Of a DNA stretch of 27,449 bases, positions 5,882 to 9,830 are shown piece after piece (position 1 is the stretch's first letter; each line of letters opens with the position of its first letter). The notes under the pieces were generated by a model. It searched no databases. It saw nothing but the letters and a program-made list of their open reading frames with translations, and was not told where the DNA came from. Both the position numbers and the translations under genes were made by a program. The DNA is from a virus. Location: IMG/VR virus record IMGVR_UViG_3300042301_000914, positions 1 through 27,449 of that record, one strand, 5' to 3'.

Positions 5882-6517
5882 ATGCCACTACACGAAGCCT
5901 CAATCCCACCGCTCAAATGTCTCGTTCGACGTGAGTTTATGACGGGTAATGATGAGCACAAAGGTCAATACGAGAAGGGGGTTGCAGTCTCAGTTCGTTC
6001 AATCCCAGGCTCTTGTGCCTTGTTTCAGGTGCTTTTGGAGAACGGTGCTCTACGGGATAAGCTGCCGATTCACGCTTTGCATGACTACGAGCATGAGCAC
6101 GAACATCCTTTTCATCATCTCCAGTTGTGGAACAGCTTCTCAGCGAACTTCTCGATTGTGGAACTTAACTTCCTTTCCGGCCTGCGGGTATCGGTGAAGA
6201 TGAAGGATGGTAAATGGGCGGATGGAATCTACCTGTGGACGATGCAATGGGGGCCAGATTATACTAACGGAGCCGACATCTCTCTGGCGATTCATCCTGA
6301 AGAGCATAAAAGCGGGCACTTTATCTGCCTTGATAACGGTGAGTTTGCGATTCAGCCTAATAACCGTCTCCGCTGGCATGAGCCTAGCCATGTGACTAAG
6401 CCCTTTCCTGAACGTCCTGAATACGTTGTGAATCAGGATGAGTGGAACTGTGAAGCTTTCGATAAGTGGACTACAGAGGACTCTAATGCTTGGCACTACG
6501 AGACTAAGGCTTGTTGA
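5882..6517 (+). CDS. Conserved phage protein of unknown function (LQNNRLRW type)
   Basis: A 211-residue protein. I recognise the general pattern of a phage protein widespread in podo- and siphoviruses: ALFQVLLENGALRDKLPIHA, then HHLQLWNSFSANFSIVEL, a short charged block (VKMKDGKWADGIYLWTMQW), and HPEEHKSGHFICLDNGEFAI ending in QPNNRLRW. Such proteins are usually uncharacterised. The domain is all-beta/mixed with conserved Trp, His and Asn residues but has no familiar catalytic motif. ATG 5882 lies in an A/T-rich context (CACTTAAAATG) without SD. The 3' end overlaps a convergent short minus-strand frame (6504-6656) by 14 bases. Confidence 0.75.
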   Translation: MPLHEASIPPLKCLVRREFMTGNDEHKGQYEKGVAVSVRSIPGSCALFQVLLENGALRDKLPIHALHDYEHEHEHPFHHLQLWNSFSANFSIVELNFLSGLRVSVKMKDGKWADGIYLWTMQWGPDYTNGADISLAIHPEEHKSGHFICLDNGEFAIQPNNRLRWHEPSHVTKPFPERPEYVVNQDEWNCEAFDKWTTEDSNAWHYETKAC

Positions 6518-6656
6518 AAGAACTGTGCTGTATTCTTCTCTCTTTTGCAGCATCTCGTTTCTCCTTTATAATCTTCTCAATTCTAGGATCATCCCTCCTG
6601 AATCCATCTCTGATGTAATTCTCTTTAGTTGTTGGTTGTGTAATATATTGATTCAT
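6504..6656 (-). CDS. Short convergent minus-strand ORF, highly charged helical protein
   Basis: ATG at 6656 (minus) to TAG at 6504-6506 gives 50 residues, starting MNQYITQPTTKENYIRDGFR, continuing RDDPRIEKIIKEKRDAAKER and ending RIQHSSFNKP. The composition is protein-like: a polar N-terminus, then a charged amphipathic helix, with AGA/GAG/AAG codons as in the phage. It is the only minus-strand frame that looks like a real protein. There is no SD before the ATG. It converges on, and overlaps by 14 bases, the 211-residue gene. An imperfect hairpin (6697-6724) lies just upstream. It could be a regulator or anti-host peptide; function is not known. Confidence 0.45.
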   Translation of the reverse strand: MNQYITQPTTKENYIRDGFRRDDPRIEKIIKEKRDAAKERRIQHSSFNKP

Positions 6657-6696
6657 AAGCACTTATTCAGAGGGTTTGAGCGGTTTCATCTGAGCA

Positions 6697-6724
6697 TAGC
6701 AGTCCCATTGCTGGGATACTGCTA
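6697..6724. other. Long imperfect hairpin, possible terminator or operator
   Basis: TAGCAGT (6697-6703) pairs with ACTGCTA (6718-6724), and CCCA pairs with TGGG inside, leaving a TTGC loop and an AT bulge. This gives 11 pairs in a 28-base hairpin. It is not followed by a T-run on either strand, so it is not a standard terminator. It lies about 40 bases upstream of the minus-strand ORF at 6656 and may regulate that ORF. Confidence 0.45.
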
Positions 6725-6761
6725 GCTTGGTAATTCTTATTCGTCAGGAATCGGGAACACC

Positions 6762-6879
6762 GTCGCACTGTTGAATCTCTCCGCTCGGCTGTCTCAGTAA
6801 ACACGGATCAAACGATTCAACGGCAGCCCAGGCTTTCACCTGCGACTTTTGCACGGCTGATTCTGCTACTCCACCGTGC
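6762..6879. other. Multi-stem inverted-repeat region in the long gene-poor interval
   Basis: The gene-poor interval runs 6657-7131. In it, GTCGCA (6762-6767) pairs with TGCGAC (6841-6846), directly continued by CTGTTGAATC (6768-6777) with GATTCAACGG (6814-6823, one T.G pair), which makes a junction. A separate GCACGG (6851-6856)/CCGTGC (6874-6879) hairpin follows. No tRNA T-loop fits on either strand. On the minus strand, 6998-6744 is an 85-codon open frame without ATG, including the startless stretch SVTACAPWEGVEISAHGGVA; it may be a decayed gene. Between 6880 and 6950 I see nothing else. Confidence 0.4.
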
Positions 6880-6956
6880 GCCGAAATCTCAACACCTTCC
6901 CATGGAGCACACGCAGTGACACTGAAGGCTATTTCAGGCAGAGATGCCCGATAAAC

Positions 6957-6989
6957 AAAAAGCCCGACATCGTAGAGAGATGCCGAGCT
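6957..6989 (-). terminator. Intrinsic terminator on the minus strand
   Basis: On the minus strand AGCTCGGCATC (6989-6979) pairs with GATGTCGGGCT (6971-6961) in 11 pairs, two of them G.T wobbles, around the loop TCTCTAC, then TTTTT (6961-6957). On the plus strand the same positions give A/C mismatches, so the element is directional. It implies real leftward transcription entering from about 7050. Confidence 0.75.
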
Positions 6990-7046
6990 AGTTGCGGTTT
7001 ACAAGTAGATCAGATCACACCTCTCTACAGTGTAAACCTTATTTAT
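6957..7046 (-). ncRNA. Predicted minus-strand small RNA
   Basis: Read on the minus strand from about 7046, the RNA would contain GGTTTACA (7038-7031) closing on TGTAAACC (7003-6996), with an inner GTAGA (7028-7024)/TCTAC (7010-7006) stem. An 11-pair intrinsic terminator hairpin with T5 follows (6989-6957). The segment GTAGAGAG (7028-7021) in the first hairpin is perfectly complementary to CTCTCTAC (6979-6972), which is the terminator loop plus one stem base. So a kissing, pseudoknot or anti-terminator state is possible. No coding frame of note lies within it. It resembles a short regulatory RNA or a transcript-ending switch located between the early and late halves. About 90 nt is predicted. 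Confidence 0.5.
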
Positions 7047-7052
7047 GATGCC

Positions 7053-7081
7053 ATTTTAGAGCTATACGTCAACTGGAACAA
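7053..7081 (-). promoter_or_regulatory. Candidate minus-strand promoter for the small RNA
   Basis: On the minus strand TTGTTC (7081-7076) and TAAAAT (7058-7053, 5/6 match to TATAAT) are separated by exactly 17 bases. A second -35-like box, TTGACG (7072-7067), lies closer in. Transcription from TAAAAT would begin near 7046, ending at the terminator at 6957. Plausible but not unique. Confidence 0.35.
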
Positions 7082-7131
7082 GGGGCAATCTCACTCTTGC
7101 CAGTGCTTTTTCGTGACTTACTTTCTCAAAA

Positions 7132-7311
7132 ATGAAAGCCACGGATTCAACCAGATTCAGCCTTGAGGAACTTGATGTGATGTCACTCTTCCTAGAAGAT
7201 TTCTATCCTGAGTTTCTCGACTTCATCTCTGATTCTGGGCTAGATCAAGATTTCGCTGAAAGACTGCTGGCAAAGTTGGCCTGTGCATGTATCGCAAAAG
7301 GTGACTCATAG
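7132..7311 (+). CDS. Small acidic helical protein (59 residues)
   Basis: ATG 7132 to TAG 7309-7311: MKATDSTRFSLEELDVMSLF, then LEDFYPEFLDFISDSGLDQD and an amphipathic C-terminal helix (FAERLLAKLACACIAKGDS). It is protein-like, with four likely helices and many acidic residues, on the same strand and 17 bases before the methylase gene. There is no SD; the upstream context is CTCAAAAATG. No family is recognised; size and charge fit a phage-encoded host-modifying or regulatory peptide (inference). It is the first gene of the late-side + strand run. Confidence 0.6.
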   Translation: MKATDSTRFSLEELDVMSLFLEDFYPEFLDFISDSGLDQDFAERLLAKLACACIAKGDS

Positions 7312-8180: not shown

Positions 8181-9830
8181 ATGTTTATCAACGAAGTATC
8201 CAAGGAGACGCTTGGCAAATACACGCCTACGCCTCACCCGATCATGGTGGCTCCTACGGCGGAGCAGATAGCTAACATCGTTAAGAACAAGGGCATTGAC
8301 CGAGCTTGTGAGCTTCTTCAGTTACGAGAGGACAAGATTCTAGCCGAGACGATGGACCCTTACAGACACGGTTATGAGCCTGAACACTGGAAGACTGCTG
8401 ATGGCCTTCTTTCCGATCCTTCCATCTCAGAACTGATGATCTTTGGCGGAAACCGCGCCAGTAAGACCGAGTATGCCGCCAAACGTGTGGCGCAATACCT
8501 AAGCCAGAACCCAGGTAAACGAGTCTGGTGCATTCATACGACTAACATGAGCAGCGTGCAGATGCAGCAGCCCGTTGTCTATAAATACCTGCCGGCGGAG
8601 TATAAAACAGCACGCAAGACCAAGATTACCAACGTAGCTTTCACCCAGAAGAATGGCTTTTCTGACAACACCTTCGTGCTTCCCAACAAAAGCCAGTGTT
8701 GGTTTCTCAACCAGTCGCAGGACATCAAGGTGATTGAAGGTGGTGAAGTCGATCTAATCTGGATTGACGAAGAAATCACGGCTGACTGGATCAAGACGCT
8801 ACGTTATCGAACGGCAACACGGCGAGGGAAGATGATTCTGACCTTCACGCCGATCAGTGGTTACACTTCCGTAGTCAAAGAATACATCGCAGGAGCCATG
8901 ATCACGAAATGGCTTCCAGCTTCCCTACTCAAGGACTCAATTAACGTCCCAGGTGGTGAACGTGGCACCATGCCGTTTCAAGCTACCTGTCACAATCCGA
9001 GTAACCGAGCCATCTGGTTCCATTCAGAACTGAATCTTTACTCTCCATTCAGCGAGATCAAGCGTGCTCTCCATGGCCGAACCAATTACGAGGTCAAAAT
9101 CCGTGCTTATGGGTGGGCAGAGAGTCTTTCAGGCTCTCAATTCCCTAAATTTGGCAACTGGAACGTCATCCCAGACGATCAGATACCAGAAAAGGGCACC
9201 AATTACATGGCAATGGACCCCGCTGGTGCTCGTAACTGGTTCATGCTGTGGCTCCGAGTGGATGAACACGGCAGAAAGTTCATTTACAGAGAGTGGCCTG
9301 GCATCGATCTAGGTGAATGGGCGATTCCGAGCGATAAACCAGACGGAAAAGCGGGTGCAGCACAACGAAACGGTGCAGGACGAGGGATTAACGACTACAA
9401 AGCATTAATCAACGAGCTAGAAGGCAAGGAAGAGATCGCTGATAGGTTCATTGACCCGCGTGCAGGTGGAACTCAAGCCATCGGCAAGGACGGTGGAACT
9501 AGCCTGACTGACCTCCTAGCCGAAGACCCGAATCCCATGTGGTTTACGCCTGCTGCTGGACTCCGAATCGAGGAGGGAATCAGCATCATTAACGACTGGC
9601 TTTCGTGGAATAAGGACGAACCCTTGCTTGCAATCCACAACGAGCCTAACCTCTACGTTAGTGAAACGTGCAAAAACATCATTTATTCTCTCCGAGAGTG
9701 GACAGGTGCAGACGGTGACAAGGGTGCAACTAAAGACCCTGTCGATGTCTTGCGCTATCTCGCAGTGATGAATCCGACCCATCAAAACAGTCAAAGCTTC
9801 CAACCTCAAGGCGAAATAGGCTCCTACTAA
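8181..9830 (+). CDS. terL: Terminase large subunit
   Basis: A 549-residue packaging ATPase/nuclease that cuts phage DNA and pumps it into the prohead via the portal. ATPase domain: Walker A GGNRASKT (89-96, with the Arg variant of TerL), Walker B DLIWIDEE (191-198), and a coupling motif ILTFTPISG (219-227). Nuclease domain (about 330-549): NYMAMDPAGA with Asp346, DRFIDPRAGG with Asp424, and DPVDVLRY near 518-525, which are the acidic residues of the RNase H-like site. The upstream 8100-8180 has no gene. Start ATG 8181 lacks an SD. A small terminase is not obvious next to it. Length is normal for podovirus TerL. Confidence 0.92.
   Translation: MFINEVSKETLGKYTPTPHPIMVAPTAEQIANIVKNKGIDRACELLQLREDKILAETMDPYRHGYEPEHWKTADGLLSDPSISELMIFGGNRASKTEYAAKRVAQYLSQNPGKRVWCIHTTNMSSVQMQQPVVYKYLPAEYKTARKTKITNVAFTQKNGFSDNTFVLPNKSQCWFLNQSQDIKVIEGGEVDLIWIDEEITADWIKTLRYRTATRRGKMILTFTPISGYTSVVKEYIAGAMITKWLPASLLKDSINVPGGERGTMPFQATCHNPSNRAIWFHSELNLYSPFSEIKRALHGRTNYEVKIRAYGWAESLSGSQFPKFGNWNVIPDDQIPEKGTNYMAMDPAGARNWFMLWLRVDEHGRKFIYREWPGIDLGEWAIPSDKPDGKAGAAQRNGAGRGINDYKALINELEGKEEIADRFIDPRAGGTQAIGKDGGTSLTDLLAEDPNPMWFTPAAGLRIEEGISIINDWLSWNKDEPLLAIHNEPNLYVSETCKNIIYSLREWTGADGDKGATKDPVDVLRYLAVMNPTHQNSQSFQPQGEIGSY

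Follow-up and report, generated by a model that had tools for sequence, protein, structure and literature searches.

The window analysed here is the whole of a 27,449-base virus record (IMGVR_UViG_3300042301_000914), in which PHROGs calls a DnaB-type helicase, a DNA methyltransferase-like gene, a major head protein, an endolysin and a PAPS-reductase-like gene. A 549-aa ORF at 8181, left without a name by PHROGs, is taken as the large terminase (TerL); its tblastn matches include proteins annotated TerL or large terminase, and the best match, in Phage C75C1, is only 29.6% identical. The window DNA had no match among 50,697 phage records, and neither its TerL nor the RNA region described below had a close match in any cultured phage. 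The region of interest (6957-7081) lies between the plus-strand ORFs 5882-6517 and 7132-7311 and was originally predicted to be a complete small RNA gene transcribed leftward. All the parts named for it (a promoter, a hairpin, a terminator-like hairpin and an 8-base complement of the first hairpin in the terminator loop) were found on the minus strand where they had been placed. The leftward direction was borne out by folding both strands: the minus strand reached -38.1 kcal/mol (z -3.74, equalled by 1 of 200 shuffles) against -25.3 kcal/mol (z -1.15) for the plus strand, and the class A body downstream (see below) folds at -67.2 against -44.3 kcal/mol on the other strand. The plus strand carries a terminator-like hairpin of its own at 7084-7101 (GGCAA..TTGCC, then GCTTTTT), immediately before ORF 7132, and this hairpin is kept in close relatives. 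The features of the locus are listed in Table 1.

Table 1. Features of the RNA locus, with positions in the window and the grounds for each assignment.
Feature	Position (strand)	Basis or remark
Sigma-70-like promoter: TTGTTC (7081-7076), 17-nt spacer, TAAAAT (7058-7053)	7053..7081 (-)	Sequence and conserved position
Putative transcription start and short 5' lead (~8 nt before P1)	7039..7046 (-)	Distance from the -10 box
Constant 83-nt 5' domain	6956..7038 (-)	Covariance model R1; 41 copies, E 1.9e-6 or better
P1, 5' strand, GGTTTACA	7031..7038 (-)	Pairs with the 3' strand, 6996..7003
Alternative nascent hairpin H1 (candidate)	7015..7035 (-)	TTACACT 7035-7029 with GGTGTGA 7021-7015; exclusive with P1
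Hypervariable segment J, GTAGAGAG	7021..7028 (-)	22 distinct J windows among 27 leaders
P1, 3' strand, TGTAAACC	6996..7003 (-)	Covariation
Hairpin P3, 11 pairs, terminator-like	6961..6989 (-)	Stem 6989-6979 with 6971-6961, then T5
P3 loop segment L3, CTCTCTAC	6972..6979 (-)	Exact complement of J
Interrupted U-tract TTTTTG	6956..6961 (-)	G invariant
Structured body, class A	6663..6955 (-)	13 sequences, 59 counted pairs; second pseudoknot TCGGC/GCCGA
Small ORF, 52 aa, GTG start	6504..6662 (-)	Directly downstream of the body; optional part of the cassette

Homologues were collected in several ways. A search with TerL gave 37 loci, in a number of which the RNA was located by nhmmer and BLAST, and their alignment revealed coordinated changes in the J segment and its P3-loop partner. 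A pattern made from P1 and the GATC loop brought in copies from other phages, and the covariance model R1 (17 sequences, built without the J-L3 pairing) recognized 7 further copies among the loci already collected. Including the loci from the body scans described below, there are 41 copies, 27 of them distinct, all in virus records and all matched by R1 at E 1.9e-6 or better; L008 was left out of the count because its RNA region does not differ from that of L007. One true copy per record was present in all 21 virus records searched in full, the weaker second R1 matches being opposite-strand shadows of true copies or, in the one inspected, a plain terminator (the second match of L065, at 22.4 bits, was an ordinary terminator). 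Among the 24 stretches returned by the pattern, L041, L042, L044, L047, L050, L052 and L059 were rejected as having neither P3 nor the J-L3 complement (L042 and L041 reached 22.6 and 18.6 bits elsewhere), while the pattern match L039 was dropped on reading, before counting. A scan of genome contigs with one strict pattern returned a single stretch, in Variovorax (L062); it lies within a long ORF whose translation resembles a Rieske-type oxygenase (named by eye), has no model match and was taken as chance. R1 gave no match at E 1e-4 in 300 genomes of the same order, a search run without a positive control. All copies thus counted come from uncultured virus contigs, and the evidence is wholly comparative. 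Rfam 15 yielded no gathering-level match in the window or in 14 loci, and no match to the large-RNA families of the GOLLD/ROOL/OLE/HEARO type at E up to 5 in 8 loci; no description of this RNA was recognized in the literature searched.

The RNA has its own sigma-70-like promoter roughly where the original prediction had put it. A hexamer pair occurs at this fixed upstream position in all 30 regions examined, with a mean of 7.67 of 12 matches compared with 3.17 in shuffles, although the flanks differ from phage group to phage group. The -10 box of close relatives reads TAAAAT, TATTAT, TATGAT, TAAAGT or TAAATT. In this scoring, the -10 box of the window lineage is identical and its best -35 box is GTTCCA at a spacing of 15, which overlaps the TTGTTC first proposed at a spacing of 17. 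An alternative promoter, TTGACG-16-CATCAT (9 of 12), would place the RNA start exactly at P1; it was dropped because only the close group keeps it, whereas the pair at the first site recurs in all 30 regions.

The first 83 nucleotides behind the short lead form a constant domain with two helices, P1 and P3. In P1, 99.5% of cells are paired and 5 of 7 pairs have changed on both sides, and P3 has two-sided changes in 8 of its 10 counted pairs; taken jointly, 98.9% of cells are paired and 13 of 17 pairs carry two-sided changes, values that none of 500 shuffles equalled on any of the five measures. Homologues without the terminator and the hairpin had been named as the finding that would speak against the element, and both hairpins are retained in 27 of 27 distinct copies. 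The other details of the original description held in part. An inner GTAGA/TCTAC helix is present in the window, but as a conserved element it was rejected: the homologues retain only the 3' half, the 5' half coinciding with the hypervariable segment. The strong terminator with T5 is there as regards the 11-pair stem and the T5, but its U-tract is weak and broken by an invariant G; among the 27 distinct copies the tract reads TTTTTG in 14, TCTTTG in 12 and TTTTG in 1, with the G closing every one. P3 of the window lineage scores as a terminator and, with its T5, is a fair candidate for an intrinsic one, so that a short form ended at P3 may coexist as a fraction of the transcripts. A closing helix formed by the two ends of the RNA, beyond P1 and P3, was also considered and rejected, the complement of a copy's own ends (6.46) being close to that of swapped ends (6.32; 1218 of 5000 permutations).

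The most conspicuous property of the domain is the pairing between J and the P3 loop. At least 6 contiguous Watson-Crick bases are formed in 27 of 27 distinct copies (mean 7.6), whereas with swapped partners the mean is 3.75, and none of 20,000 permutations was as good as the true partners; this permutation test ignores kinship, yet relatives differ almost completely in the letters of J. J is the fastest-changing part of the domain (mean pairwise difference per site of 0.53, compared with 0.08 in P1, among 10 close relatives), and it is independent of the body class, since identical J segments were found with different classes. The pairing was noticed when 12 of the 27 copies were known; the other 15 were found afterwards by searches that made no use of it, and it is preserved in every one of them. 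Thus the proposed kissing or pseudoknot contact linking the first hairpin with the loop of the terminator-type hairpin is real, the complement being kept in every distinct copy while its letters are almost wholly changed. The covariation fits either a pairing within one molecule or one between identical molecules. In the window CTCTCTAC has 3 sites (0.89 expected), including L3 and the complement of J itself at 7021-7028; the additional one is on the plus strand at 689-696, within an early ORF.

The 5' strand of P1 is shared with an alternative hairpin, H1, whose loop of 6-7 nt contains J. The covariation score of H1 (0.353) was reached in none of 500 shuffles (0.226 +/- 0.023), and its share of paired cells was above all 500; at columns 8-21 the pair is G-C in 9 copies, U-A in 8, A-U in 6 and broken in 4 (n = 27). 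H1 is less certain than P1 and P3, and the weakest among our structural claims, because its 3 pairs with two-sided change are an unremarkable number, matched by 61 of 500 shuffles. Among folds of the first ~25 nascent nucleotides, H1 ranks first in 22 of 27 copies; with the domain complete, the P1 conformation is the more stable one (mean -18.7 vs. -10.4 kcal/mol), which suggests a possible co-transcriptional switch. The switch to an antiterminator that had been proposed finds some support insofar as mutually exclusive helices, H1 and P1, do exist; H1, however, competes with P1 and is not an antiterminator for P3, and no covarying helix that invades the P3 stem was found.

The structured region does not end with P3. 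In the window it runs beyond 6957 to about 6663, and all copies inspected have, directly 3' of P3 on the same strand, a region that is structured or at least structure-like, giving bodies of 200-600 nt behind the 83-nt domain. In the class A body (13 sequences), 97.9% of cells are paired and 28 of 59 pairs show two-sided change; its covariation was reached by none of 500 shuffles on four measures and by 1 of 500 on the fifth, and the second pseudoknot reads TCGG(C/U) with (G/A)CCGA across the sequences. The evidence for structure in class B bodies is modest (two-sided change in 6 of 45 pairs, 6 sequences). Class C consists of two full copies only, and L043 and L051 each have a body known from one sequence, which stands outside the covariation analysis. 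Toward the 3' end of class B bodies (L003 5035-5280, minus strand, and its kin) a very G-rich run pairs with a strand rich in pyrimidines, and GAGAGAGAG comes next.

Domain and body occur together without exception. A scan with the class A core pattern, which includes nothing from the 83-nt domain, returned 29 stretches, 18 known and 11 new, and all 11 new ones have the domain upstream (E 4.7e-7 or better). The class B and class C patterns found 8 and 3 stretches, each with the domain, and no new contigs; in total, the body-only patterns gave 40 stretches with the domain on 40 of 40. A conserved promoter between domain and body was not found in 24 copies (mean 1.17 of 12 matches vs. 3.23 in shuffles), and promoter-like candidates of any kind are present there in 4 of the 24. 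Since domain and body are always together, the body has no promoter and the U-tract is interrupted, the body would most simply be made by read-through of P3. The gene is therefore probably not complete as first drawn: a larger structured RNA always continues on the same strand, with no second promoter and behind a weak U-tract.

The bodies are interchangeable behind one front domain. By a tally compiled by hand from several readings and scans, 29 of the 41 copies have class A bodies (with two sub-types carrying longer inserts), 8 class B and 2 class C, while L043 and L051 are unclassified. Bodies of several classes have been exchanged, partly as chimeras, as in L070, where the start of class C is joined to the core of class A. 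In L064, L066, L067 and L077 a stretch resembling a tRNA T-arm, GGTTCAAGTCC, with complementary ends flanking it, separates the 83-nt domain from the class A core; ARAGORN calls no tRNA there, and no tRNA genes were found in the window or in the 13 loci scanned.

The cassette as a whole is also optional, as judged from contigs, and would be mobile. L005, with a TerL 98.7% identical, is without it, and its flanks meet where L007 has the cassette; in L012 and L014 (TerL 96% identical) it is absent by the covariance model. Unrelated DNA occupies the cassette site in L014 (5044-5516) and L012 (1-209). The location varies, too: the cassette is upstream of the terminase in the group of the window, beside a capsid gene in L055 and its kin, and elsewhere again in L043, L051, L064 and L071. 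Homologues of the 52-aa ORF behind the body were found only in L001, L004 and L037 among the loci searched; other copies have at this position an HNH or restriction-type nuclease ORF or none. The clearest is the HNH ORF of L051 (Pfam HNH, 24.3 bits; cut-off 21.4), besides a weaker HNH ORF in L043, an ORF like a restriction-type nuclease below the cut-off in L019 and an HNH-like ORF read by eye in L011. These nuclease ORFs are small and belong to unrelated types, and most copies have none. The 66.5-kb virus contig that holds the L051 copy and its HNH ORF also has, at L051 4782-4846 on the minus strand, a stretch that matches the type-P1 twister ribozyme (RF03160) with 48.3 bits and E 1e-7, short of the gathering threshold of 67.2.

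Several known systems share traits with this RNA. Like HEARO, the omega RNA of IsrB/IscB, it is a structured RNA that in some copies has an HNH ORF directly behind it. In HEARO the ORF is optional. The Rfam scans, on the other hand, gave no HEARO match in the loci scanned, and the ORFs beside the RNA are small HNH or other nucleases of varying type or are lacking, with no IscB/IsrB-type nuclease among them. Phage small RNAs with intrinsic terminators likewise have a promoter, a short structured segment and a GC stem followed by U's, whereas here the RNA continues into a conserved structured body, with an invariant G interrupting its U-tract. What would mark a stand-alone small RNA was thus found in one respect, an own promoter, but not as a conserved uninterrupted U-tract or as independence from the downstream sequence.

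GOLLD and ROOL are, as here, large structured RNAs encoded by phages (and, in their case, prophages), of unknown function; a homo-oligomeric cage made of RNA alone is a mark of these two families. PMC12286853 describes GOLLD as having one conserved and one variable half, with linkers that sometimes contain tRNAs, and gives for both families a pairing between a joining segment and a loop, which was recognized from covariation and which cryo-EM showed to be intermolecular. The RNA of the window differs in being shorter (~384 nt), in having its conserved part at the 5' end and its bodies exchanged whole, and in having no sequence or structure match in Rfam 15. A covarying, complementary pair of loops is known also from the phi29 pRNA. 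The pRNA loops pair by 3-4 nt and J-L3 by 6-9, and pRNA is needed for packaging, whereas the cassette here is absent from near relatives. According to PMC12670572, the two pRNA loops vary together and remain complementary.

On these data, the most likely explanation, and one we consider well favoured, is that a single, larger noncoding RNA of ~384 nt is transcribed leftward (from ~7046 to ~6663), with the region first singled out as its constant 5' domain and not as a free-standing element; a small RNA gene complete in itself is improbable here. The opposite view, that a trans-acting RNA of ~90 nt is ended by P3 and the body is a separate element, appears unlikely: promoter and terminator-like hairpin are suitably spaced and the domain folds strongly, but domain and body always co-occur (11 of 11 new loci), the body lacks a promoter of its own, an invariant G breaks the U-tract, and J, the sole segment free to act as a seed, pairs with L3 in every copy. 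Somewhat less doubtful is an attenuator, in which the 83-nt domain would be a regulated terminator before a leftward unit of structured body and small ORF, with H1/P1 and the J-L3 kiss setting the read-through past P3. The terminator-like P3, the two exclusive helices and the body, at times with a nuclease ORF, downstream on the same strand would all suit such a device; against it, the P3 stem itself has no conserved competing helix, the U-tract is interrupted in all copies (as TCTTTG in 12 of 27), and the downstream ORF is missing or different in most.

The nuclease ORFs of L051, L043, L019 and L011 and the empty site in L005 bring to mind the RNA of a mobile nuclease element (HEARO/IscB-like or homing-endonuclease-like) that would serve the HNH or restriction-type enzyme encoded behind it. 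We hold this to be improbable, given nucleases that are small, unrelated in type and missing in most copies, a J segment matched inside the RNA and not to a target, and the lack of any Rfam match in the loci scanned, from which the lack of a HEARO match follows. A packaging RNA like that of phi29, whose loops would pair between molecules in a ring on the portal, seems very improbable indeed. It would account for a covarying loop pair such as PMC12670572 gives for pRNA, and in the window the RNA lies ~1.1 kb upstream of the terminase gene; this reading is unlikely because the close relatives L005, L012 and L014 (TerL 96-99% identical) are without the cassette, and other phages carry the RNA elsewhere, for instance upstream of the capsid gene.

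If the RNA is indeed a constant 5' domain with a body, its synthesis may be pictured as follows. The nascent RNA would first fold H1, displaying J in the loop; H1 would then rearrange to P1/P2, J would pair with the P3 loop, and the polymerase would normally read through P3 and run on into the body. The J-L3 pairing would act as a structural lock, in one molecule or between identical molecules, and the product would be a phage RNA that is stable, has a structural or oligomeric nature, can be dispensed with and passes among phages as a cassette. Self-recognition between copies is plausible because J and L3 change together and fastest yet stay complementary. Fast change of J and L3 beside a near-fixed P1 is what self-recognition predicts, and relaxed constraint on a purely structural helix would give the same. 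A bolder and tentative proposal, which we regard as possible at best, is that of a self-recognizing modular RNA: copies of the same RNA would assemble through the J-L3 kiss under diversifying selection, so that the RNAs of co-infecting phages stay unmixed, and the H1-to-P1 switch would expose the recognition loop first during transcription. The interchangeable bodies would have differing activities, such as binding, inhibiting or decoying host factors, and the whole cassette would be mobile, at times with a homing-type nuclease.

Overall, our best reading of the comparative evidence is that of a new, large and modular RNA family, previously undescribed, which would be an accessory module in many uncultured aquatic phages. 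It is at most comparable in kind to GOLLD and ROOL, with a function suggested by analogy, and is a member of no Rfam family. The call of a small RNA with a terminator can, as here, concern the front end of a longer RNA, which calls for caution with such predictions. Large structured RNA families known from phages are few, and this one is compact enough for testing. Nature has already provided the experiment: more than 20 different J/L3 pairs on one scaffold, exchanged bodies and a near relative with an empty site. With these natural variants, it can be asked directly whether the loops pair within or between molecules and what the role of the body is.
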